From Akkermansia muciniphila (GTDB lineage: Bacteria > Verrucomicrobiota > Verrucomicrobiia > Limisphaerales > SIAT01), in contig CAMASG010000005.1 in NCBI GenBank assembly GCA_945860945.1, positions 1 through 55,751 on the forward strand: a stretch of DNA of 55,751 bases. Direction: 5' to 3'. Positions 30,564 through 53,204 of this stretch are shown in pieces. Numbering within the stretch: position 1 is the first letter of the stretch; each line of letters opens with the position of its first letter. Under the pieces are notes generated by a model. The model was not told the origin of the DNA and searched no databases. It saw nothing but the letters and a program-made list of their open reading frames with translations. A program made the translations under genes and the position numbers.

Positions 30564-31988
30564 TCACGCGAGCAGTTCGCGGACGAGTTTGCCGTGCACG
30601 TCGGTGAGGCGGTAATCCCGCCCGCCGTGACGGTAGGTGAGTCGCTCGTGGTTGAGGCCGAGCAGATGCAGAATCGTGGCGTGCAGATCGTGTACGTGGA
30701 CGCGGTCTTGCGCAGCGTGCCAGCCGAAGTCGTCCGTCGCGCCGTGGACGTGTCCGCCTTTCGCGCCGCCGCCCGCCATCCACATCGTGAAGCCGAACGG
30801 ATGATGCTCGCGGCCGTTGTTGCCTTCGGCCGTCGGAGTGCGGCCGAACTCGCCGCCCCACACGACGAGTGTGTCCTTCAGCAGGCCGCGCGCCTTCAGA
30901 TCCTTCAGCAACCCAGCGATTGGTTTATCCACGGAAGCGCAGTTGGCTGGCAATTCCACGCGCAGATTTCCGTGCTGATCCCAGAGTTGGCAGCTCGAGC
31001 GTTTGTTCGTCTGCGTGTGATAAACCTGCACCATCCGCACGCCGCGCTCGACGAGTCGCCGCGCCATCAGACATTGCTTGCCGAAAATCTCCGTCGTCGG
31101 CTCGTCGAGGCCGTACAGCTTCCGCGTCTCCGGGGATTCGAGCCCAGTGTCGAAGGCCTCGGGCGCTTCGCGCTGCATCCGGAAGGCGAGCTCGAACGAC
31201 TCGATGCGCGACGAGAGCCGCGAGTCTTCCTCGCGCTGCGCGGCGTGAAGACGGTTCAGCTCCTGCATCAAATCGAGTTTTCGCCGCTGTGCTTCGGACG
31301 AACCGCCGGCGAGGTTGGCGATTGGTTTTTTGAGGTCGGTGACGAGTGTGCCTTGATAAGCCGCGGGCAGAAAACTCGAGTTCCAGAGCGGCGCGCCTTG
31401 TGCGGGCTGCGCAGGGCTGATGACGACGAAGCCGGGCAGATTTTGATTCTCGCTGCCGAGGCCGTAGAGCAACCACGAGCCGAGGCTCGGACGCGAGAAG
31501 GCCTGCTCACCGGTGTTCATCTGCAGGCACGCGCCGTTGTGGTTGATGTTGTCCGCGACCATCGAGCGGATCACGCAGATGTCGTCCGCGCAGCCGGAGA
31601 GGTGCGGCAGAAGTTCGCTTATCTCGGTGCCACTTTGCCCGTGCTTTTTGAACGTGTACGGCGAGGCGAAGAGATTGCCCGTCCGCGTGCGCTCGAGCTT
31701 CGGTCTCTCGATCGGGAGCGGCTTACCGTTGAGTTCGGCGAGCTTCGGTTTGGGATCGAACGTGTCCACGTGCGACGGCCCGCCGGACATGAAAAGGAAG
31801 ATGACGCGCTTGGCTTTCGGCGCGAAGTGCGGCGGGCGGACAGTGAGCGGGTTTGATGAAGGGGCTGCGAGCGCGCGGCTGGCGAAGTCGTCGGATAGCA
31901 ACTGCGCGAGGCCGAGCATGCCGAAGCCGTTGGCGAAGTGGCCGAGCATTTGTCGGCGGTTCAGCGTATTGTCGAAAGGATTATTCAT
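30564..31988 (-). CDS. DUF1501 protein (planctomycete/verrucomicrobial, Tat-exported)
   Basis: The 474-residue protein belongs to DUF1501, a family related to alkaline-phosphatase-fold sulfatases. A twin-arginine export signal with Arg11-Arg12 (RRQMLG) opens it. The segment FLFMSGGPSHVDTFDPKP carries the fold's typical metal-loop start, and the central VWGGEFGRTP and the C-terminal GLNHERLTYRHGGRDYRLTDV are DUF1501 hallmarks. Biochemical function is not established for the family. It follows the DUF1549/DUF1553 gene by 18 bp on the same strand, the usual partner order, so the two are one transcription unit. Confidence 0.9.
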   Translation of the reverse strand: MNNPFDNTLNRRQMLGHFANGFGMLGLAQLLSDDFASRALAAPSSNPLTVRPPHFAPKAKRVIFLFMSGGPSHVDTFDPKPKLAELNGKPLPIERPKLERTRTGNLFASPYTFKKHGQSGTEISELLPHLSGCADDICVIRSMVADNINHNGACLQMNTGEQAFSRPSLGSWLLYGLGSENQNLPGFVVISPAQPAQGAPLWNSSFLPAAYQGTLVTDLKKPIANLAGGSSEAQRRKLDLMQELNRLHAAQREEDSRLSSRIESFELAFRMQREAPEAFDTGLESPETRKLYGLDEPTTEIFGKQCLMARRLVERGVRMVQVYHTQTNKRSSCQLWDQHGNLRVELPANCASVDKPIAGLLKDLKARGLLKDTLVVWGGEFGRTPTAEGNNGREHHPFGFTMWMAGGGAKGGHVHGATDDFGWHAAQDRVHVHDLHATILHLLGLNHERLTYRHGGRDYRLTDVHGKLVRELLA

Positions 31989-32006: not shown

Positions 32007-34898
32007 TCAGTCCACGTAAATGAATTCATTCGCGCAGAGCAGAGCGTGGCAATAGCGGTCCAGCCGATCCTCCACAGTGCCGCCGGTCTCGGGCGCGAGT
32101 GAGGCGATGCCGAGCGCGGTCTCCTTTCCGAGCGGCGGCCGGCCGTAGAGGGTTTGATAGAGCCAGCCGATTTGCGCGGTGGTTTCGGCGGGCGCTTCCT
32201 TCGCTGCGCGTCGGGCGAGTGCTTTCGCCTGCGCCTGCGCGAATGGATGGTTGAGAAGAAAGAGTGCCTGCGGAGCGACGGTGGATTCGGTGCGTTTCTC
32301 GACGATTGAGTCGGGATCGGCTGCATCAAACAATGTGCGATAATTGCTGCGATCGGAACGAGCAGTCATCAGATACAACGTGCGCCGCGGGGTCTCCAAT
32401 TCGCGAAAGGAAGGTCCGCCGAGAGTGAAATCCAGCGCGCCAGCGGCGGCGACCAGCGAATCACGCAACGCTTCGGCATCCAGCCGTTGCCGATTCTGTC
32501 GGCCGAAGAGCCGGTTATCGGGATCGCTTCGCGCCGTCAACGAAGAGCCGGAGCTTTGCTGGTAGGCGGCCGAGTTCACCATGAGTCGGTGCATCGCTTT
32601 GAGGCTCCAGCCGGACTCGGTGAAACGGCTCGCGAGCCAGTCGAGCAACTCCGGGTGCGTGGGAGTCTCGCCGAGCTTGCCGAAATTATTCGCTGTGCGG
32701 ACGAGGCCTTCGCCGAAGTGATGTTGCCAGAGGCGGTTCATCATCACGCGCGCGGTGAGCGGGTTCTCCGCGCTGGAAATCCATCGCGCTAAATCTAGCC
32801 GACCGCTGCCGCTCGCGATCCGCGGCTGCGTGGTGGCGAGCACCACGGGGAAGGCGCGTGGCACGACGTCGCCGAGCCGGTCGTAGCGGCCGCGGCCGTG
32901 CAAGCGAACGTCATTAAACCCTTCGTATTCCGTCTTGGGAATTCCGCCTTCCTGAAAACCGTGCGTCATCGCCGGCGGCTTCAATTCGGAGGTGAGGCGT
33001 TTGCGCTCCGCTTCGAGCGCGGCGAGATCGGGCTTGTCATTCGCGAGCTGCGCGCCTTCACCGGCGCAAATCCACCAGAGATTGTCCTGCCCCTGTTTGG
33101 CGCCGTTGATAAGCGCTTCGTGCAGTGACCATGCGCGTCCATCTGCGGCTTTGATTCGGAACTCCACCTGCGTCGAGTCGCACGAGTAATCGTTGCGCGG
33201 GCCGATGATGAGCTGCAGCAGGTCGCCTTCCGCGACGGTCACTTCCTGTTCCGTGAACTCGACATTTTTGCCGTTGTCCATCGCGCCTTCAGAGAGCGTT
33301 TTGCCGGCGTGCCGCACAGACCACGTGACGCCGTTACCACAGGTTGGATCCACGTCGATGAGCTTCGCGCTCACGCGCACGCGGCCGGCGAGCGGACTGC
33401 GCCACGCGGCGGTGACGGGCGTTTTCGGGCCGGGATGCAGCGCGATGGCGCGCGCGGGAAGCTTGATGGTGATGAAGGCGACGGCGTTCGTGGTGGTGTT
33501 GATGACGAGGGAAGGATTGGGCGCATCCTTCGGCGACCATGAGTGGAGGCCGGGTTTGTTTTGGACATCACGCTGGACCACGGTGAACGGCACCAACCCA
33601 CCGGCGATTTTCGCATCGATAGCCGCAATCCGTTGCTGCAATGCATCGCGCGTGGCTTGCTCGGTGGGCGGCGCGATCGGGATGCGCATGATATTTTCGC
33701 CCGCGGTGGGCGCGTTGAACTTTGCGAGGATGCGGCTGCTGAAGAAAAATCCCGCGAGGCCGTAATAGTCGCGCTGCGTGATGGGGTCGAACTTGTGGTC
33801 GTGGCAGCGCGCGCAGGCGACGGTGAGGCCGAGGAACGCGCGGCCGGTCACGTCGATCTGGTCATCCACGATGTCGGTGTAAACCTTCTTCTTGTCCGAG
33901 TCACCGTTGCCCCAACTGCCGATGGCGTAAAGGCTGGTCGCGATGATTTTGCCTGCGTCGAAGGGCGCGTTGGTTTGTGCGGCGAGGATGTCACCAGCGA
34001 TTTGCTGACGGATGAATTCGTCGTAAGGCAGGTCGCGGTTGAGAGCGTCCACAACCCAATCGCGATAACGCCACGCGTCGAGAATATCGCCGTCCTTGCC
34101 GAGGCTGCGCGCATCGAGCGAGTCGGCGTAGCGCACCACATCGAGCCAATGCCGCGCCCAGCGTTCACCGTAACGCGGGCTGGCGAGTAGACGATCCACA
34201 ACCTTGGCGAATGCGGTGGGCGAACTGTCCGCGAGGAAACTCGCGGTCTCCGCGGGCGTCGGCGGCAGGCCAGTCAGATCGACCGTGACGCGCCGCAACA
34301 GCGTGCGTTTGTCGGCCGTCGGCGCGGGGCGGAGACGGTTCGCCTCGAGCTTCGCGAGAATGAAACGGTCGATGGGCGACTTGGGCCACGACGTATCCTT
34401 CACCGACGGCGTCGGCGGATTGGTCGGCTTCGCGAAGGCCCATTTCTTGCGCTCGGTCGCGAGGTCGAAGGGAAGCGTGACTGCGGACGGAGAGATGGTA
34501 GCAGACGGAGCGTTGGTGCGCGGGTCGATCGCGCCCGTGCGAATCCATGTCTCGAGGTCGGCGATTTGTTGGGGCGCGAGCCGCTGGTTTTTCGGCGGCA
34601 TCTGCAATTCCTTGTCCGTATAACGCACGGCGCGGATGAGCAGGCTTTCGTCCGGTTTGCCGGGGCGAACAGCCGTGCCGCTCTCTCCGCCTTTCACCCA
34701 ACCGTCGCGCGAATCGATCCGCAGACCGCCCTTTTGCTTCTGCTCGCCGTGGCATTCGTAGCAGCGCTCGGCGAGAAGTGGACGGATGCGTTTCTCGAAG
34801 AACTCGATTTGATCCAGCGCAGGCGCGGCGGAGAGAGAGGTCGTCGCAGCCATCACGGCAGTCAGGAGCAGCGCCAATGTTTTCCGAGAGTGAATCAC
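32007..34898 (-). CDS. PSD1 and planctomycete cytochrome c domain protein (DUF1549/DUF1553)
   Basis: The 963-residue exported protein has a signal peptide (about 1-24) and a small cytochrome-c-like domain with heme motif CYECH (Cys46, Cys49, His50) and a possible Met ligand in ELQMPPKNQ. DUF1549 follows at about 150-390, with a second CxxCH-type motif ACARCHDHK (Cys362, Cys365, His366). A central beta-rich part contains a CBM-like region, and the C-terminal DUF1553 starts in the GGIPKTEY region and carries RVMMNRLWQHHFGEGLV. These proteins and their DUF1501 partners are abundant in Planctomycetota and Verrucomicrobiota; roles in sulfated-polysaccharide use and electron transfer are proposed, not proven. 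It is the promoter-proximal gene of the pair. Confidence 0.92.
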   Translation of the reverse strand: MIHSRKTLALLLTAVMAATTSLSAAPALDQIEFFEKRIRPLLAERCYECHGEQKQKGGLRIDSRDGWVKGGESGTAVRPGKPDESLLIRAVRYTDKELQMPPKNQRLAPQQIADLETWIRTGAIDPRTNAPSATISPSAVTLPFDLATERKKWAFAKPTNPPTPSVKDTSWPKSPIDRFILAKLEANRLRPAPTADKRTLLRRVTVDLTGLPPTPAETASFLADSSPTAFAKVVDRLLASPRYGERWARHWLDVVRYADSLDARSLGKDGDILDAWRYRDWVVDALNRDLPYDEFIRQQIAGDILAAQTNAPFDAGKIIATSLYAIGSWGNGDSDKKKVYTDIVDDQIDVTGRAFLGLTVACARCHDHKFDPITQRDYYGLAGFFFSSRILAKFNAPTAGENIMRIPIAPPTEQATRDALQQRIAAIDAKIAGGLVPFTVVQRDVQNKPGLHSWSPKDAPNPSLVINTTTNAVAFITIKLPARAIALHPGPKTPVTAAWRSPLAGRVRVSAKLIDVDPTCGNGVTWSVRHAGKTLSEGAMDNGKNVEFTEQEVTVAEGDLLQLIIGPRNDYSCDSTQVEFRIKAADGRAWSLHEALINGAKQGQDNLWWICAGEGAQLANDKPDLAALEAERKRLTSELKPPAMTHGFQEGGIPKTEYEGFNDVRLHGRGRYDRLGDVVPRAFPVVLATTQPRIASGSGRLDLARWISSAENPLTARVMMNRLWQHHFGEGLVRTANNFGKLGETPTHPELLDWLASRFTESGWSLKAMHRLMVNSAAYQQSSGSSLTARSDPDNRLFGRQNRQRLDAEALRDSLVAAAGALDFTLGGPSFRELETPRRTLYLMTARSDRSNYRTLFDAADPDSIVEKRTESTVAPQALFLLNHPFAQAQAKALARRAAKEAPAETTAQIGWLYQTLYGRPPLGKETALGIASLAPETGGTVEDRLDRYCHALLCANEFIYVD

Positions 34899-38494: not shown

Positions 38495-38630
38495 AGAAAC
38501 GTGCTGTTGTCGCTGAATATTTGATTGCGGTCGGGGTCGAACTGGGCGAGAAATAGGATGTAGCTTTTGGGTCGATATGATGCGCAGCAACCCAACGCGT
38601 TTTTCAGCCGGTTTGGGAGGTCTTATTGCT

Positions 38631-41600
38631 ATGATGATTCGTTTGTTTCGCCACGGCTTGGCATTGGCCGCACTGTTCGCTCTGTTGAACGCGGCGCACT
38701 TCGCGCCGGTGGTTTTCGCGCAGCAGAATAATGACCCCGCCCTCGAGCTCTATTTCAGCGCCAACGGCCTCTACAATCGCAAGCTCTACGAATTGGCCGC
38801 GGGCGACTACAAAAGCTTCCTCACCAAACATCCTCGGCACGAGAAGGCGCCGCACGCGAAGCTCGGTTTGGCGTTGAGCCTCTTCAACCTCGGCCGTCAC
38901 GCCGAGGCCGAACCGGTGCTGGCCGACCTCGCGTCGAGCTCGAAGTCGCCCGAGCCGGAGCAGGTGCATCTCGTGTGGGGTCAGTCGCTGCTGATGCTGA
39001 ACAAAGCCGCGAAAGCGGAGGAAGCTTTCACGAAAGCGCTCAAGCAGGAGAAGGCTGTGCTGCGCGACAACGCGGTGGCCGGTCTCGTCGAGGCGCTTTT
39101 CCAGCAGCAGAAATGGAAAGAGGTCATCACTCGCGGCGATGAGCTGGCGAAGGGGAAGGCTGCCTACACGCCGCGCGCGAAGTTTCAGGGCGCCGTTGCC
39201 CGCTACGAGTTGAAGCAATACAAGGAAGCCGCTGGACTACTCGGCGAGCTGGTGACTGAGGCGAAAAACCTCCCCTTCGCGCAGCAGTCGATCTTCTTGC
39301 TCGCCGAATGCAAACGCGAGCTGGGCGACCTCGCGGGCGCGGAGACGCAGTATGATGCTACGCGCAAACTCGACGGACAGTTTACCGCTGACGCGCTCTT
39401 CCGACTCGGTTTCGTCCGGTTCCAGCAGAAGAAATTCGCTGCGGCTGCAGCCGACTTCGCCGAGTTGCGCGCGAAGCACAAGAATCATTCTTCCGCCAAG
39501 TCCGCTGCAATTTATCTCGGCCGCGCCCAGCTTGAGAACCGCGACTTCAAGTCCGCCGAGACCACGCTGGCGGAGCTCGCCGCTGAGCCCGCCGCCAGTG
39601 GGGACATCGCGCTTTGGCAGGCGCGCGCGTTCTCGCGTCAGCAGAAATACGCCGAGGCTTCGGACGTTCTCGGGAAGGCGGTGGTGCGTCACTCGAAAGA
39701 TCCGTTGCTGTCCGACCTACTCTTCGACCACGGCAACGCGTTGCTCGGTGCTGGGAAATTTGCCGATGCGGCCAAGTCCTTCGCGCGGATCACCGACGAG
39801 TTCCCCGAGTTCCCGCAAGCAATTGATGCGCTCCGGTTGCACGCGCTCTGCTTGCATCGCGCTGGACAGTTCGCCGCCAGCCACGCTCTTTGCAGCGAAT
39901 TTCTCGCGAAGAATGGCGATTCGCCCGCGACGGCCGAGATCGCCTTTCTTCAAGCGGAGAACCTTTTCTTCCAAGAGAAGTTCGACACGGCGCTGCCGGC
40001 TTATCGCAAGTTCATCGTCGCGCACGTCACCAGTCCGCAGCGTGCCGCCGCGCAACTCCGCGTGGGGCAGTCTCTCTATCAGCAGCAGAAATGGGCCGAT
40101 GCGGTGAAGGAGTTGGAGCCGCTCACCAAATCGAAGAAGACCGAGCCGCTCTTCGCGCAGGTGGAGTTCCTCCTCGGCGATTGCCTTTTCCAGCAGGAGA
40201 AATGGGCCGATGCGATCGGTGCGCTGAATCGTTTCGTGGCCTCGGAGCCGAAAGATCCGGACGCGGATACGGCGTTGCTCAAGATCGCTTTGGCGCACGA
40301 CCGGAATGGTGCGCGCGAGAAGTCCGCCGCCGCACTCGACCGTCTCGCGCGTGAACATCCGGCCAGCGCGCATCTGCCGCACGCGCTTGTCGAAATCGGC
40401 CGGTTGCGTCTGGACGCGAACGATCTCGTCGGCGCTCGCAAAGCGCTCTCGCAGGTTGCGTCCGCGATTGCTGCGCCCCGCACGGCACCGAGAGGTGCTC
40501 CTGAGCAAGGTTCGGGCGCGCGCGTGCTCGTGGGGTTGAATGGATCGAAGGCGCCGGCCACGCCCGCGGCTGCGGCGCAGTATTACCACGGCTGGGCGGA
40601 GTATTATCTCGCGTGGACCGCGCTCGGTGAGAAGAACGAGGACGAAGCGGTGAAGCAGTTCGGCATCGTGGCGGACAAGTTCGTCGGTCACTCGGCTGCG
40701 TCCGATGCGCGACTGCAGCTCGCCGTGCTTCTCGCGCGGCGGAATGACGCCGGTTCCGCCACCGCCGCGCAGGCCGCGCTCGCGAAGTTCATGAAGGAGA
40801 ATCCGAACGACGCGAAGATCGACCAAGCCGCGTTCCATCTCGGCAGCGTCTTCGCGAAGCAGCGCCAGTGGGCGCCGGCGCTCGAGCAATTCCACAAGGT
40901 CGCGTCGATGGAGAAATCCCCGCTGCGCGACCGCGCATTCTACGAAGCGGCGTGGGCGGAGAAGGGCGCGGGCCGTAACGCCGCTGCCGCGAAGGAATAC
41001 GAGGCGCTGCTCAGCAAGTTCGCGCAAAGCCCGCTGGCCGGTCCGGCTGCGTTCGAGTTGGCCGAGTTGGAATACGAGGCGAAGAACGTGGACGGCACCA
41101 TCAAGCGACTCACGCGTCTGCTCGCCGACACGAAGGACGCCGGCCTGCGCAGTCGCGCGCAGTATCGTCTTGCGTGGTGTCAGTTCGACAAAGGCGACTT
41201 CACCGCGGCCGCGAAATCTTACGAGACCGTGCTTAAGGACGCGCCGCCCGAGTTGATTGCCGTGGCTTCGTATCAAGCCGGTGAATCGCAACTCAAGCTC
41301 AAGGCGTACAAGGCCGCGCTCGCTCACTTCCAGAAATCACTCGCTGATGCTGGTGGCGCGGAGGTGAAAGAACAGGCGATGCTCCGCACCGGCGAGTGTC
41401 AGGCGTTGCTCACTCAGTGGGCCGACGCGGAGAAGACGTACGAGAGCTTCACCGAGAAGTTTCCGAAGCACGATCTCGTTCGCCGAGCGAAGCTCGGGCT
41501 CGGTTGGTCGCGCGAGAACCAGCAGAAGTTCACCGAGGCGCTCCCGCTTTACGAATCAGTAATCACCAGTGGCGAGCGCGATGATCTCGCCGCGCGCGCG

Positions 41601-41840
41601 CAGTTCCAGACGGGCGAATGTCTTTTCGCGCAGAAGAAAAACGACGACGCCATCCGCGCGTTTATCAAAGTTGAAATCGGTTACGGCTACCCCGAGTGGA
41701 GCGCGCGTGCGCTGCTGCGCATCGGCAACGTGCTCGAGCGAAAGGGCGACCGCCCCGGCGCGCTGGAGCGTTTCAAGGAAGTCGCACAACGCTATCCCGA
41801 CACCGACGCCGCGCAAATCGCGAAGGAGCGGCTGCGCTGA
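38631..41840 (+). CDS. Large exported tetratricopeptide-repeat protein (CpoB/YbgF-like)
   Basis: The 1069-residue protein starts with an Ala/Leu-rich signal peptide (MIRLFRHGLALAALFALLN, cleaved near VFAQ) and then consists almost entirely of TPR/Sel-like helical hairpins, roughly 20 to 25 of them. Repeated phrases include FQQEKW/LYQQQKWADA, A-x-F-x-L-x-E-x-x-Y and ALxxFxxV. Tripartite repeats of this kind resemble the C-terminal TPRs of CpoB/YbgF and of BamD-like lipoproteins. A low-complexity Ala/Pro segment (about 615-645) interrupts the array. I chose the ATG at 38631 because GGGAGG sits 10 bases upstream; the frame is open to 38577. It ends 8 bp before the transducer-like gene, which it probably serves in the periplasm. 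Confidence 0.88.
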   Translation: MMIRLFRHGLALAALFALLNAAHFAPVVFAQQNNDPALELYFSANGLYNRKLYELAAGDYKSFLTKHPRHEKAPHAKLGLALSLFNLGRHAEAEPVLADLASSSKSPEPEQVHLVWGQSLLMLNKAAKAEEAFTKALKQEKAVLRDNAVAGLVEALFQQQKWKEVITRGDELAKGKAAYTPRAKFQGAVARYELKQYKEAAGLLGELVTEAKNLPFAQQSIFLLAECKRELGDLAGAETQYDATRKLDGQFTADALFRLGFVRFQQKKFAAAAADFAELRAKHKNHSSAKSAAIYLGRAQLENRDFKSAETTLAELAAEPAASGDIALWQARAFSRQQKYAEASDVLGKAVVRHSKDPLLSDLLFDHGNALLGAGKFADAAKSFARITDEFPEFPQAIDALRLHALCLHRAGQFAASHALCSEFLAKNGDSPATAEIAFLQAENLFFQEKFDTALPAYRKFIVAHVTSPQRAAAQLRVGQSLYQQQKWADAVKELEPLTKSKKTEPLFAQVEFLLGDCLFQQEKWADAIGALNRFVASEPKDPDADTALLKIALAHDRNGAREKSAAALDRLAREHPASAHLPHALVEIGRLRLDANDLVGARKALSQVASAIAAPRTAPRGAPEQGSGARVLVGLNGSKAPATPAAAAQYYHGWAEYYLAWTALGEKNEDEAVKQFGIVADKFVGHSAASDARLQLAVLLARRNDAGSATAAQAALAKFMKENPNDAKIDQAAFHLGSVFAKQRQWAPALEQFHKVASMEKSPLRDRAFYEAAWAEKGAGRNAAAAKEYEALLSKFAQSPLAGPAAFELAELEYEAKNVDGTIKRLTRLLADTKDAGLRSRAQYRLAWCQFDKGDFTAAAKSYETVLKDAPPELIAVASYQAGESQLKLKAYKAALAHFQKSLADAGGAEVKEQAMLRTGECQALLTQWADAEKTYESFTEKFPKHDLVRRAKLGLGWSRENQQKFTEALPLYESVITSGERDDLAARAQFQTGECLFAQKKNDDAIRAFIKVEIGYGYPEWSARALLRIGNVLERKGDRPGALERFKEVAQRYPDTDAAQIAKERLR

Positions 41841-41848
41841 ATGATCTG

Positions 41849-44800
41849 ATGCCGACACGCCACAACTGCAATGTTCCGTCGCCGCGCCCCGCGCGGAAGG
41901 GACGTCGTTGGCTTGTGGCGCTCGGTTTCGTTGCGTGGGTTGGATTGCTTTCGAGTGCAGAGCCATCCGTTCCCGCCGCAGTTTCCGCCGCTCCACTCCC
42001 TTCCGTGGCGTCGGACAAGATCGAGGCCGTGCTGCACACGCTCGTGCAGTACAAGTGGTCCGTGCTCCTGCTGCTCCTCTCGCTGATCGGGCTCATCCAC
42101 ATCGCCCGCAAGCTTGCCACCGAGAGCGAACGGCGCAAGCTGAACATCATTCAGCGCTGCCTCATCGGCTCAATCATCCTCCATTTGTTGGCGGGCTTCT
42201 TCTTCACCGCGTGGGTGGTTTCAAACGCTGTGAAACGTTCCGTGATCGAAGTCTCCGCCGAGTCGAACCTCGTGCCGATTGATCTCGCGAGCCTCGACGG
42301 TCAGGGCGAAGGCGGTGGGGGCGAAGCCGACCCGCGTCTGTTGCAGGCGTTGCGCGAACAGGTTTCCAATCTACCCCGCGCGGCCGCGGGAATGTCCGTT
42401 GCCAGAGCCGCCGGACAATCGGGCGGCGGCGGTGGTTCGCCGATGCGCAACGGCAACGTGATGACCGGCGGCGCGACGGGTCGCACGGCGCCGTCAGCGT
42501 CGTTCACGGTCTCCGAGAGTTCTCCGACAGAGAACGGCCGATTGGAGACCGCGAGTTCCACCACGCTCGCTCCGCAGGCCGCGCAGATGAGCGGTTCACT
42601 CGAAGCCCGCGCCGACACGAGTGTGCCGCGTCCCGAGATGGTCCGTCCGTCGCTCGACCTCACCGCGCCGAGTCGGATGGCGGTGCAACAGGTCACGCCC
42701 GAGATGGCGCGGCCCGCGATGAACGTGCGCGTGCAGCGTCCCGGCACCTCGGCTTCGCGGATGGTGCAGGTCGCCACGGCGGAATCATCGGGCGCGACCG
42801 GCGAGTCCACCTCCGCATCGGCATCGCTCCCCGCAGCCAGTGCCGCTGGTGCGGCCAGCGCTTTGTCGGCGATGTCCGCGAACACCCCTTCCACCACCGG
42901 TGTGCAAATGGAATCGGCCCGGCCCGTGGCCGCCAGCGCATCTGGCCCGACGATGCAGAATCCTTCCAGCCGGATGGACACCGCGCGCGGCGAAGCGAAT
43001 GCCAGCGGCGCAACTTCCACGCGCGCCGAGATGAGCGCGAGCTCGCCCACGCGCGCGGCCACGGCACGCAGCGCGGCTGGTTCCGCCGTCGGCTCGTTCG
43101 GAGCGACGAGTGACAGCGCAACGCGGAGCGAGAGTTTGAGCGCAGCCAGTGCGGCCGGTGCGATGGCGGCAATGGCCGGCGGCAATGCCAGCGGCGCGGC
43201 ATCATCAGCGATGCAGATGGAAGCGGGCCGACTCGGCGGCAGCGCGACCGGTGCGACGTCGGGTGCAGGAATGGCCAGCGCCTCCAGTCGGATGGATGTC
43301 GCGCGCGCAGCGGGGAGCGCGGGCGCGAGTGGAAATAGTTCTGCCACGCCAGGCCGCGCGGCGATGGGCAACGGCGCTCTGGCCGGTGGCGCATCAGGTG
43401 CAGCGGGCGCAGCGCGCGGTTCTTCAGCGGTCGGTTCATTTGGCCCCGTGAGTAGCGGCAACAGCGGTGGCGGTGGTGAAGGTTTGGCGGCGGCGAATTC
43501 CGCCAGTTCACTTTCTTCATCCACCGGCAACGGTGCTGCTGGTGGCAGTGCCGCCGGCGGAATGCAAATGGAAGCCGGCCGACTCGGCGGTGGTGCGTCG
43601 GGCGCGCGATCGGGTTCGGGTCTTGCGGGCGCTTCAAGTCGCATGGATGTGTCGCGGTCGGGTTCGGGCAATGGCTCGAGCAACGGCGGTTCAACCGCGC
43701 CGGGTCGCGCGGCGATGGGCAACGGAGCATTGGCAGGCGGCCCCTCCGGTGCAGGGCAGGGCAGCGGATCTTCGGCAGTCGGCTCGTTCGGGCCTGTGAG
43801 CGGCGGCGGCGGTTCGGGCGGTGGTTTGGGTTCGGCGAGTTCTGCCGGTTCGCTTTCATCGATTGCCGGCGGCGGTTCTGCGAGTGGTAGTACCGGTGGC
43901 GGAATGCAAATGGAAGCAGGACGACTCGGCGGTGGTGCTGCGGACGCACGCTCAGGTTCGGGTCTTGCGGGCGCTTCAAGTCGGATGGATGTGTCGCGCT
44001 CGGGTTCGGGTAATGGGTCGGGTAACGGCGGTTCAACTCCGCCGGGACGGGCGGCGATGGGCAGTGGCACGGGGACTGGCGGCAAGAGCGGTGCGGGTCG
44101 CGGCACGGGTTCTTCGGCGGTAGGCGCGTTTGGTCCGGCGACCGGTGGTGGTTCGGGCGGTGGCGAAAGTTTGGGCGCGGCGGGAGCTTCGGGTGCGTTG
44201 GGTGGGACGCCTCAATTTGCGATGACCGGTGGCGGCGGTTTCCGGGCGGAGATGGCGTCTCCCGCCGCGGGCGCGGCCGGCAGAGGCTCAGACGTGGGAC
44301 GCGCCTCGAGCAAGGTGGGCGTGAGCCGCGCGAGTGGCGCTGGTAGTGGCGAAAGCGGCAGCGGTCCGGCGCGACTGGGCGGTCCGGGTGGAACCAGCGG
44401 TGGCGCGAGCAAGTTTGGTTCCTTCGCTGCAGCGCAGAAAGTGGAGTTCGGTTCCGGCACGAGCGATGGCGGCCGCGGTTTGGGCGGGGTGAATTTTGGA
44501 CAACCATCCGCAGCACCCAAGTTCGGCGAAGCGGATGTGAAGTTAGAGACGCGCCCGGCGAACATTGCCGCCACGCCGAAGCCGACGTCCGTTCCCGAAG
44601 CCCGTCCCTCTGCACCCATCGCGTCGATGAAGGCCGCACCGATTGTGACGAAAGTCGAACGGCCGGTGTCGTTGATCGCGAAGGCACCGATGGATTTGGC
44701 ACCGCTGCGCTCGGTGTTGCAGCCGTCAGCCAAGGTCGAGAGCGTTCAACTATCGCGTCCGTCGGAGCTGCCGACTTCTGCCGCGACGCGGTTGATGGAT

Positions 44801-45892
44801 ATGGCCGTGCCGGTGCGTCCGGCGGTCTCGTCTTTGATCGACACGAAGAACCCGCTCGCGCTGCGCTCGCCGGAGATGCGCGCGGGATTGCTCGAGCAAC
44901 TCGGCGGCAACGATGAGACGGAGGCGGCGGTGCGGCGGGCATTGGAATGGTTCAAGCGCACGCAGGAGCGCGACGGCCATTGGACGCGCGGCGGGCAGGG
45001 GCATCACTCGTCGGCGACGGCGCTGGCGATGCTCTGCTTCATGGGCTACGGCGCGAAGCACACCGAACCGGGGCCGTATCAAGAGACGCTTGAGCGCGCG
45101 ATGTCGTGGCTTTTGAAGCAGTCGAAGGCGGAGGGCGATGTGCGCGGCGACGGCGATTTGTACGATCAGGCGATCGTCACGATGGCGTTGGCCGAGGCGT
45201 TCAACCTCACGAAAGATCCACGACTGCAAGAGCCGGTGCGCAAAGCGGTGTCGTTCATCGTGACGGCGCAGAACAAAACAACCGGCGGCTGGCGTTACAA
45301 GCCGTGGGCGCGCGATCCGCAGGAGAAGGGCGATCTCTCGGTGACGGGCTGGCAAATCATGGCGCTGAAGAGCGCGTCGCTCGCGGGCGTGGAAGTGCCG
45401 AGTTCGGCGTTCACGGGCGCGGGGAAGTTTATCGAATCGCTCGGTCGCGGCCGGCATGGCGGGCTTTACGGCTATCGCTCGTCGGATCCGGAACCGAAGC
45501 CGACGATGACGGCGCAGGCGCTTTTCTCGCGGCTGCTGCTGGGGCAGGGAACGGGCGACGCGCGCACGGCGGAGACGCTCGTTTATATGCGCGAGCAATT
45601 GCCCAGCCTGCGCGAGGTGAATTATTACTACTGGTATTACGGCTGCCTCGCGCTTTATCAGCATCAGGGCGCGGTGTGGGAGGAATGGAACGGACGGATG
45701 CGGCCGATCTTCCTGAAGGCGCAGCGGCGCGACGGCCAACTCTCGGGAAGCTGGGACGCCGAGGGCGATCGCAAGGAAACCTACGGCCGCTTCATCACCA
45801 CCGCTCTCGCCACGCTTTCGCTCGAGGTCTATTATCGTTATCTGCCGCTCTACAAGCCGACGCTGACGGCTGCGAGCGAAGCGCAGAAGTAA
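41849..45892 (+). CDS. Membrane-anchored protein: TonB/TolA-like S-x3-H helix, Gly/Ser/Ala repeat linker, C-terminal alpha/alpha toroid
   Basis: This 1347-residue protein has three hydrophobic segments (21-37, 71-87, 104-127). The Arg/Lys-rich loop 88-103 is cytoplasmic by the positive-inside rule, so the rest is periplasmic. The third helix contains Ser108-x3-His112, the spacing seen in TonB (S16/H20) and TolA. After it come ~890 residues of Gly/Ser/Ala/Met-rich repeats, then a squalene-cyclase/prenyltransferase-like toroid (about 1020-1340) with QW-type motifs QERDGHW, QNKTTGGW and QRRDGQLSGSW. Cyclase catalytic residues (DXDD) are not evident. Co-directional with the 8-bp-upstream TPR gene. 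I chose the ATG at 41849; upstream residues lie inside that gene. Alternatives are a structural surface protein or an inactive cyclase-like domain. The domain order is clear; the function is inferred. Confidence 0.82.
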   Translation: MPTRHNCNVPSPRPARKGRRWLVALGFVAWVGLLSSAEPSVPAAVSAAPLPSVASDKIEAVLHTLVQYKWSVLLLLLSLIGLIHIARKLATESERRKLNIIQRCLIGSIILHLLAGFFFTAWVVSNAVKRSVIEVSAESNLVPIDLASLDGQGEGGGGEADPRLLQALREQVSNLPRAAAGMSVARAAGQSGGGGGSPMRNGNVMTGGATGRTAPSASFTVSESSPTENGRLETASSTTLAPQAAQMSGSLEARADTSVPRPEMVRPSLDLTAPSRMAVQQVTPEMARPAMNVRVQRPGTSASRMVQVATAESSGATGESTSASASLPAASAAGAASALSAMSANTPSTTGVQMESARPVAASASGPTMQNPSSRMDTARGEANASGATSTRAEMSASSPTRAATARSAAGSAVGSFGATSDSATRSESLSAASAAGAMAAMAGGNASGAASSAMQMEAGRLGGSATGATSGAGMASASSRMDVARAAGSAGASGNSSATPGRAAMGNGALAGGASGAAGAARGSSAVGSFGPVSSGNSGGGGEGLAAANSASSLSSSTGNGAAGGSAAGGMQMEAGRLGGGASGARSGSGLAGASSRMDVSRSGSGNGSSNGGSTAPGRAAMGNGALAGGPSGAGQGSGSSAVGSFGPVSGGGGSGGGLGSASSAGSLSSIAGGGSASGSTGGGMQMEAGRLGGGAADARSGSGLAGASSRMDVSRSGSGNGSGNGGSTPPGRAAMGSGTGTGGKSGAGRGTGSSAVGAFGPATGGGSGGGESLGAAGASGALGGTPQFAMTGGGGFRAEMASPAAGAAGRGSDVGRASSKVGVSRASGAGSGESGSGPARLGGPGGTSGGASKFGSFAAAQKVEFGSGTSDGGRGLGGVNFGQPSAAPKFGEADVKLETRPANIAATPKPTSVPEARPSAPIASMKAAPIVTKVERPVSLIAKAPMDLAPLRSVLQPSAKVESVQLSRPSELPTSAATRLMDMAVPVRPAVSSLIDTKNPLALRSPEMRAGLLEQLGGNDETEAAVRRALEWFKRTQERDGHWTRGGQGHHSSATALAMLCFMGYGAKHTEPGPYQETLERAMSWLLKQSKAEGDVRGDGDLYDQAIVTMALAEAFNLTKDPRLQEPVRKAVSFIVTAQNKTTGGWRYKPWARDPQEKGDLSVTGWQIMALKSASLAGVEVPSSAFTGAGKFIESLGRGRHGGLYGYRSSDPEPKPTMTAQALFSRLLLGQGTGDARTAETLVYMREQLPSLREVNYYYWYYGCLALYQHQGAVWEEWNGRMRPIFLKAQRRDGQLSGSWDAEGDRKETYGRFITTALATLSLEVYYRYLPLYKPTLTAASEAQK
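42824..44500 (+). repeat. Five decaying tandem repeats (~103-116 codons each) inside the toroid protein gene
   Basis: Units start near 42824, 43133, 43481, 43823 and 44168 (residues 326, 429, 545, 659, 774), spaced about 309-348 bases. The unit pattern is (S/G)L..AS.AG, then MQMEAGRLGG, then ASSRMDV, then PGRAAMGNG, then SSAVGSFGPVS. Units 2-4 are most alike; 1 and 5 are diverged, and the fifth loses the pattern partway. They encode a flexible linker. All spacings keep the reading frame, which points to duplication by slippage or unequal exchange under selection for an open frame. Confidence 0.85.
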
Positions 45893-52802: not shown

Positions 52803-53204
52803 TTAACGCTTGCTGAACTGGAAGCGTTTGCGGGCGCCGGGTTGGCCGTACTTCTTACGCTCTTTCTCGCGGGCATCGCGAGTGAGCAGGCCTTGGGCTT
52901 TGAGAGCGGGGCGCATGGCAGCGTCCACCTCGAGCAGGGCGCGGGAGATGCCGTGGCGCACGGCGCCAGCTTGGCCGGAAGGTCCGCCGCCGGCGACGTT
53001 CACACGGACGTCGAACTTGCCGTTCGATTCGGTGACGGCGAAAGGCTGGATGACCATCGCGCGCTGATCTTCCACGTGGAAGTAGGCGTCGTAGGCGCGG
53101 CCGTTCACGACAATCTTGCCGGAGCCGGTGGCGATGCGCACGCGGGCGACGGCGGTTTTACGCCGGCCGGTGCCGAGGAATTCCTTGATCTTGGTCTTGG
53201 CCAT
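52803..53204 (-). CDS. rpsI: 30S ribosomal protein S9
   Basis: S9 lies in the small-subunit head, with its tail near the P-site tRNA. The 133-residue protein has the family start with [14 protein letters not shown] and the conserved end RKRFQFSKR, whose last Arg contacts tRNA. It lies six bp after rplM, the standard rplM-rpsI pair, and is followed by a terminator. Confidence 0.97.

Follow-up and report, generated by a model that had tools for sequence, protein, structure and literature searches.

A toroid-tipped membrane protein of Verrucomicrobiota as a likely force transducer resembling TonB and TolA

Introduction

Most of what is known about force transduction across the bacterial envelope comes from TonB and TolA. 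In these proteins, the Ser and His residues of the Ser-3X-His-6X-Leu-3X-Ser (SHLS) motif contact ExbB or TolQ at the motor rim (PMC12905483). Williams-Jones et al. (2025; PMC12204202) described TonB-like transducers from bacteria of the Planctomycetes-Verrucomicrobia-Chlamydiae (PVC) group that are headed by a vWA domain, carry the conserved motor-binding His and are encoded 3′ of genes for a tetratricopeptide repeat (TPR) protein, a tolQ-like protein and paired tolR-like proteins. Here, we analyze a stretch of 55,751 nucleotides (contig CAMASG010000005.1, deposited as Akkermansia muciniphila; hereafter, the window), in which a gene on the + strand (41849-45892) encodes a 1347-residue protein with a Ser-x3-His membrane helix, a long linker and a C-terminal α/α toroid. 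Comparison with its relatives makes it likely that this protein is a periplasmic force transducer working like TonB and TolA, with the toroid as the head; by domain it is not a member of the TonB/TolA family, and most likely only acts like one.

Results

A toroid tethered to the membrane by a long linker

The open reading frame (ORF) of the toroid protein starts 9 bases 3′ of the stop codon of a TPR gene, and its third-position GC content is as expected of a coding frame. The original prediction, made from the DNA alone, attributed to the product three N-terminal hydrophobic segments, a Ser-x3-His pair inside the third of these, a very long low-complexity linker and a QW-motif α/α toroid, and all of these features were recovered. 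Hydropathy places the segments at residues ~21-36, 72-90 and 106-124, with a strongly basic loop between the last two, and Ser108 and His112 (42170-42184; Ser codon 42170-42172, His codon 42182-42184) fall by position within the third, IQRCLIGS(108)IILH(112)LLAGFFFTAWVV. Segment 1 (41909-41956), RKGRR-WLVALGFVAWVGLLSSAEP, is signal-peptide-like in sequence and hydropathy and is probably a signal peptide, so that the core of the membrane region would be a hairpin of two helices, where TonB has a single one. The first helix of this hairpin, segment 2 (42062-42118), aligns with its counterparts in genomes G292 and G447 and in a paralog from genome G269. The basic loop (RKLATESERRKLNIIQR region, 42119-42163) is predicted to be cytoplasmic by the positive-inside rule; segment 3 (42164-42220), the predicted motor-docking helix by hydropathy and alignment, would therefore run from inside to outside, like the TonB helix, leaving the linker and the toroid in the periplasm. 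The Gly/Ala/Ser-rich linker (19% G, 19% A, 17% S) covers about 880 residues (about 131-1010; 42239-44863) and includes an internal repeat of 114 residues, or 342 bp.

The C-terminal ~340 residues (44864-45889) match the Pfam profile SQHop_cyclase_C with an E-value of 1.1e-6. An AlphaFold2 model built from 55 natural sequences is an all-helical toroid (mean predicted local distance difference test score, pLDDT, 90.6; predicted template modelling score, pTM, 0.89), and its best fold matches in the PDB are α/α toroids, namely, squalene-hopene cyclase (SHC), the terpene cyclase MstE, complement TED, glycoside hydrolase family GH76 and cellobiose epimerase. Given that enzymes (SHC, MstE, GH76 mannanase, cellobiose epimerase) make up most of the toroid's relatives in sequence and fold, the protein could be a membrane-tethered enzyme, cyclase-like or, by fold, GH- or epimerase-like, or else a glycan-binding protein that only shares an operon with the motor genes. 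We regard this as quite improbable: a search for D-x-D-D across the toroid found none, and the conserved Asp site reads GDLSVTGW (general form GDxSVxGW), with D-x-S-V at this position. Terpene cyclase function, in particular, was rejected because the DxDD motif of class II terpene cyclases is missing. Searches of Pfam and NCBIfam gave no match of the protein to a TonB/TolA C-terminal domain, although the same search matched the TolA/TonB-like proteins of the genome itself to TIGR02794/TIGR01352; no vWA match was obtained in Pfam, and none to phage-defence models.

The helix motif is conserved and associated with motor genes

Genomes from 84,980 species were scanned, and relatives were found in Verrucomicrobiota, Kiritimatiellota, Sumerlaeota and Planctomycetota, including Kuenenia. 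The counts that follow refer to 81 non-redundant relatives from the four phyla, with less than 60% identity and complete N-termini. A His is present in an N-terminal membrane helix of 70 of the 81, and the full Ser-x3-His pair in 53, as against 8 of 1391 membrane helices predicted for the other genes at the same loci (Fisher p ~1e-67), a value that is indicative only, since the control consists of mechanically called ORFs, the comparison sets proteins against helices and the relatives lack full independence from one another. Genes for both ExbB and ExbD lie upstream on the same strand in 48 of 81 relatives, mostly in the order TPR-ExbB-ExbD-toroid. The membrane His and the motor go together: 46/48 motor-linked proteins have the residue, compared with 18/27 of those without an adjacent motor gene (Fisher p 0.001). 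A toroid that merely shares an operon with the motor would leave the conserved Ser-x3-His, and the His of the motor-linked proteins, unexplained.

In many relatives, a PD40 (TolB-like) β-propeller precedes the hairpin. The proteins of G292 and G447, with ExbB and ExbD directly upstream, are built as a first transmembrane helix, a PD40 β-propeller, a second helix, a basic loop, a third helix with Ser-x3-His, the linker and the toroid. Helices 2 and 3 of the window protein align with the hairpin of such propeller-bearing, motor-adjacent homologs, with Trp, Cys, Ser108, His112, Phe and Trp invariant (alignment A1), and the window protein thus corresponds to the G292/G447 architecture minus the propeller. 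A propeller-less plan like that of the window, with a signal-peptide-like start, hairpin, linker and toroid, is found next to a motor in a Sumerlaeota genome (L192). The position of the motif in the second helix of the hairpin in many members raises the question of whether Ser and His serve hairpin packing or dimerisation alone rather than motor docking; this is highly improbable, given that single-helix members encoded next to ExbB/ExbD/ExbD (G139, G119) carry the motif equally.

Some toroid proteins depart from this pattern. Those of the verrucomicrobial family f25 (L103, L104, L118, L128, L129) have a single N-terminal helix from which the His is absent, and their genes, some of which form tandem triplets, have no same-strand ExbB/ExbD upstream. 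In Planctomycetota loci L226, L228, L229, L237, L238, L240, L241 and L243, an ExbD-like gene precedes the toroid gene and no ExbB was recognised nearby; ExbB in this group is either divergent or missing.

The cassette in relatives and at the window locus

The original prediction had looked to exbB/exbD genes near the gene in related genomes, and these indeed lie directly upstream of the orthologs. The sister lineage, G224, has TPR-ExbB-ExbD-toroid within the same syntenic block, flanked by a 3-keto-disaccharide hydrolase gene on one side and a methyltransferase gene on the other, and the same order recurs in G130, G432, G433, G437, G443, G447 and G292 of the same taxonomic order. More distant families display ExbB-ExbD-ExbD-TPR-toroid (G030, G055) or TPR-ExbB-ExbD-ExbD-toroid (G139, G119). 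The motor genes of G292, G224 and G130 are confirmed by Pfam matches to MotA_ExbB and ExbD, and the membrane Asp of the cassette ExbDs fits a strict pattern in 75 of 95 ExbD-like ORFs; nearly all of the 15 listed among those failing it show an MID/LVD-type Asp by eye. Two motor-toroid cassettes of G447 (C54 and C171; L095 and L094) are apparently in tandem, one with a single-helix protein without the membrane His and the other with propeller and hairpin.

The window's genus was sampled as three genomes: G000, the window's own, G269 and G388. In the tree, the three form one clade (support 100/99), sister to motor-bearing G224 (98/98) and nested inside motor-bearing lineages. Of the upstream TPR/TolQ-like/TolR-like set, the window locus has kept the TPR gene alone, and there is no Pal, TolB or motor gene. 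This conserved cassette partner (38577-41840, + strand), 5′ of the toroid gene, encodes a 1087-residue YbgF/CpoB-like protein with a signal peptide, the repeats of which match TIGR02795 (tol_pal_ybgF) with 281 bits over 10 stretches, as well as CpoB; a 3-keto-disaccharide hydrolase gene lies 3′ of the toroid gene. In local alignments of the N-termini with ExbB starts and with signal-peptide controls, scores were mostly inside the control range. The sole hint that the ExbB signal peptide became joined to the hairpin after one deletion is the short spacing after the TPR stop, which is alike for the window toroid start and the exbB start of G292. Elsewhere in the genus, G269:C67 (L172) holds a second TPR-ExbB cassette, broken off by the contig end, and two propeller-toroid proteins are encoded where G269:C10 (L048) ends; the two are probably parts of one broken cassette.

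G000 has three ExbB/ExbD-type (ExbBD/TolQR) pairs, none adjoining the toroid gene: contig C87 carries a canonical TolQ-TolR-TolA-TolB-Pal operon, C23 an ExbB/ExbD pair with two TonB-like genes, the ExbB of which matches TolQ/ExbB structures (E 5.5e-12), and C6 an ExbB/ExbD/TonB-like set. Orthology of these pairs to the cassette motor is unsupported because neither their neighbours nor their missing signal peptides match. In the C6 set (L056, 8972-10787), the ExbD-like protein has Ala/Cys in place of the membrane Asp and the TonB-like partner has Gln in place of the helix His, likewise in G269 and G388, which suggests, from these residues, a degenerate or altered motor.

Apart from the cassette, the window encodes on the - strand a planctomycete-type cytochrome/DUF1549/DUF1553 protein (32007-34898), followed by an apparent DUF1501-type partner (30564-31988), a pair common in PVC genomes. 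The tRNA that ARAGORN places at 52948-53042 (+), opposite a protein-coding region, has an undetermined type and an anticodon of four bases (ggtc); the call is probably false.

Discussion

The mechanism that we infer comprises motor docking, use of the proton-motive force, a motor partner in trans and a target for the toroid. The third segment, with Ser108 and His112, would dock on the outside of the ExbB pentamer, and proton flow through ExbB/ExbD would move the docked helix; the long flexible linker would transmit this motion across the periplasm to the toroid, which would take the place of the TonB/TolA C-terminal domain and grip a partner. The first candidate for that partner is the upstream YbgF/CpoB-like TPR protein, or an outer-membrane component held by it. 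In the window's genus, the motor may be supplied in trans by an ExbBD or TolQR pair encoded elsewhere, as for TonB of Escherichia coli.

Several observations weigh against a force-transducing role. Neither motor gene is found near 27 of the 81 relatives. The membrane His is missing from one genus that carries the motor (G130, G432, G437 and the related G443 and G447b) and from the divergent G301. TonB and TolA have a single helix where the window protein has a hairpin. The window protein has only part of the SHLS motif, the positions +7 and +11 from the His being Phe119 and Val123; among the 53 Ser-x3-His relatives, Leu occupies position +7 in 20, and the full motif is not conserved. Finally, exbB and exbD are absent from the window locus in all three genomes of the genus (G000, G269, G388), and, because this clade is nested inside motor-bearing lineages, they were most likely lost there. 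The proposal of a proton-motive-force-driven transducer with a toroid in place of the TonB/TolA domain is largely upheld by the helix motif, motor synteny and fold, but qualified by the lack of a motor pair at the protein's own locus, by the two-helix hairpin and by an SHLS motif that is half present; use of the proton-motive force is presumed. As to the Ser/His pair, it is kept in helix 3 across several phyla, although the Ser is Thr in G224 and Ala in family f28, and the one motor-bearing genus lacks the His.

With exbB/exbD lost from the locus, the protein must borrow a motor or be uncoupled. If uncoupled, it would be a decoupled relic, its hairpin merely anchoring the toroid as a static scaffold or binding domain. 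The absence of the two genes, the nesting of the clade and the fact that no other ExbBD pair in G000 is of the cassette type with a signal peptide all fit such a relic, which we nevertheless consider rather unlikely: the three genomes of the genus still agree at Ser, His and the nearby Cys, Phe and Trp, residues that motor-bearing homologs also have, and G269 retains the second TPR-ExbB cassette. Moreover, E. coli TonB works with exbBD genes located elsewhere in the genome.

A transducer using a borrowed motor is, by our assessment, the better account of the window protein. A broader proposal, to which we give even chances, is that Planctomycetes, Verrucomicrobia and their neighbours have in common a trans-envelope machine, the third after Ton and Tol-Pal, which would consist of an ExbB/ExbD motor, a TPR protein resembling CpoB and a transducer combining propeller, docking helix and toroid; the window's genus would have lost its dedicated motor and propeller and use a borrowed motor. 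The combination of ExbB/ExbD with a toroid, squalene cyclase or prenyltransferase is undescribed in the open-access literature searched. Relatives encoded beside their own motor genes across Planctomycetes and Verrucomicrobia point to an undescribed variety of energy-driven envelope machine. This toroid-tipped class, which is common among PVC bacteria and in which a fused propeller is frequent, would broaden the concept of a single docking helix able to drive heads of very different kinds, and it offers a concrete candidate function for a large set of genes that match only squalene cyclases by sequence.

Comparison with known systems

The window protein shares with squalene-hopene cyclases and other α/α toroids, such as thioester proteins and MstE, a QW-type α/α barrel by sequence and fold; unlike them, it has a single barrel of ~340 residues, without DxDD, which a linker tethers to the membrane and which is associated with a motor. 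The PD40 propeller of its relatives and the adjoining YbgF/CpoB-like TPR array recall the Tol-Pal accessory proteins TolB and CpoB/YbgF, but the propeller is fused into the transducer, the locus has no Pal gene and a canonical Tol-Pal operon lies elsewhere in the genome (C87). As in TonB and TolA, a Ser-x3-His membrane helix is followed by a long disordered linker and a globular, predicted periplasmic C-terminus, and ExbB/ExbD adjoin the relatives; the differences are a toroid for the α-β C-terminal domain, a two-helix hairpin, a propeller in many relatives and the incomplete SHLS motif of the window protein. The closest published precedent of the toroid class is provided by the vWA-domain force transducers (PMC12204202), the description of which does not contain the words toroid, cyclase or squalene. 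Both have a TonB-like helix with the His, a linker and a foreign C-terminal domain, and TPR, TolQ-like and TolR-like genes lie upstream of the orthologs and relatives of the window gene as well; what sets the class described here apart is its head, a toroid instead of vWA.

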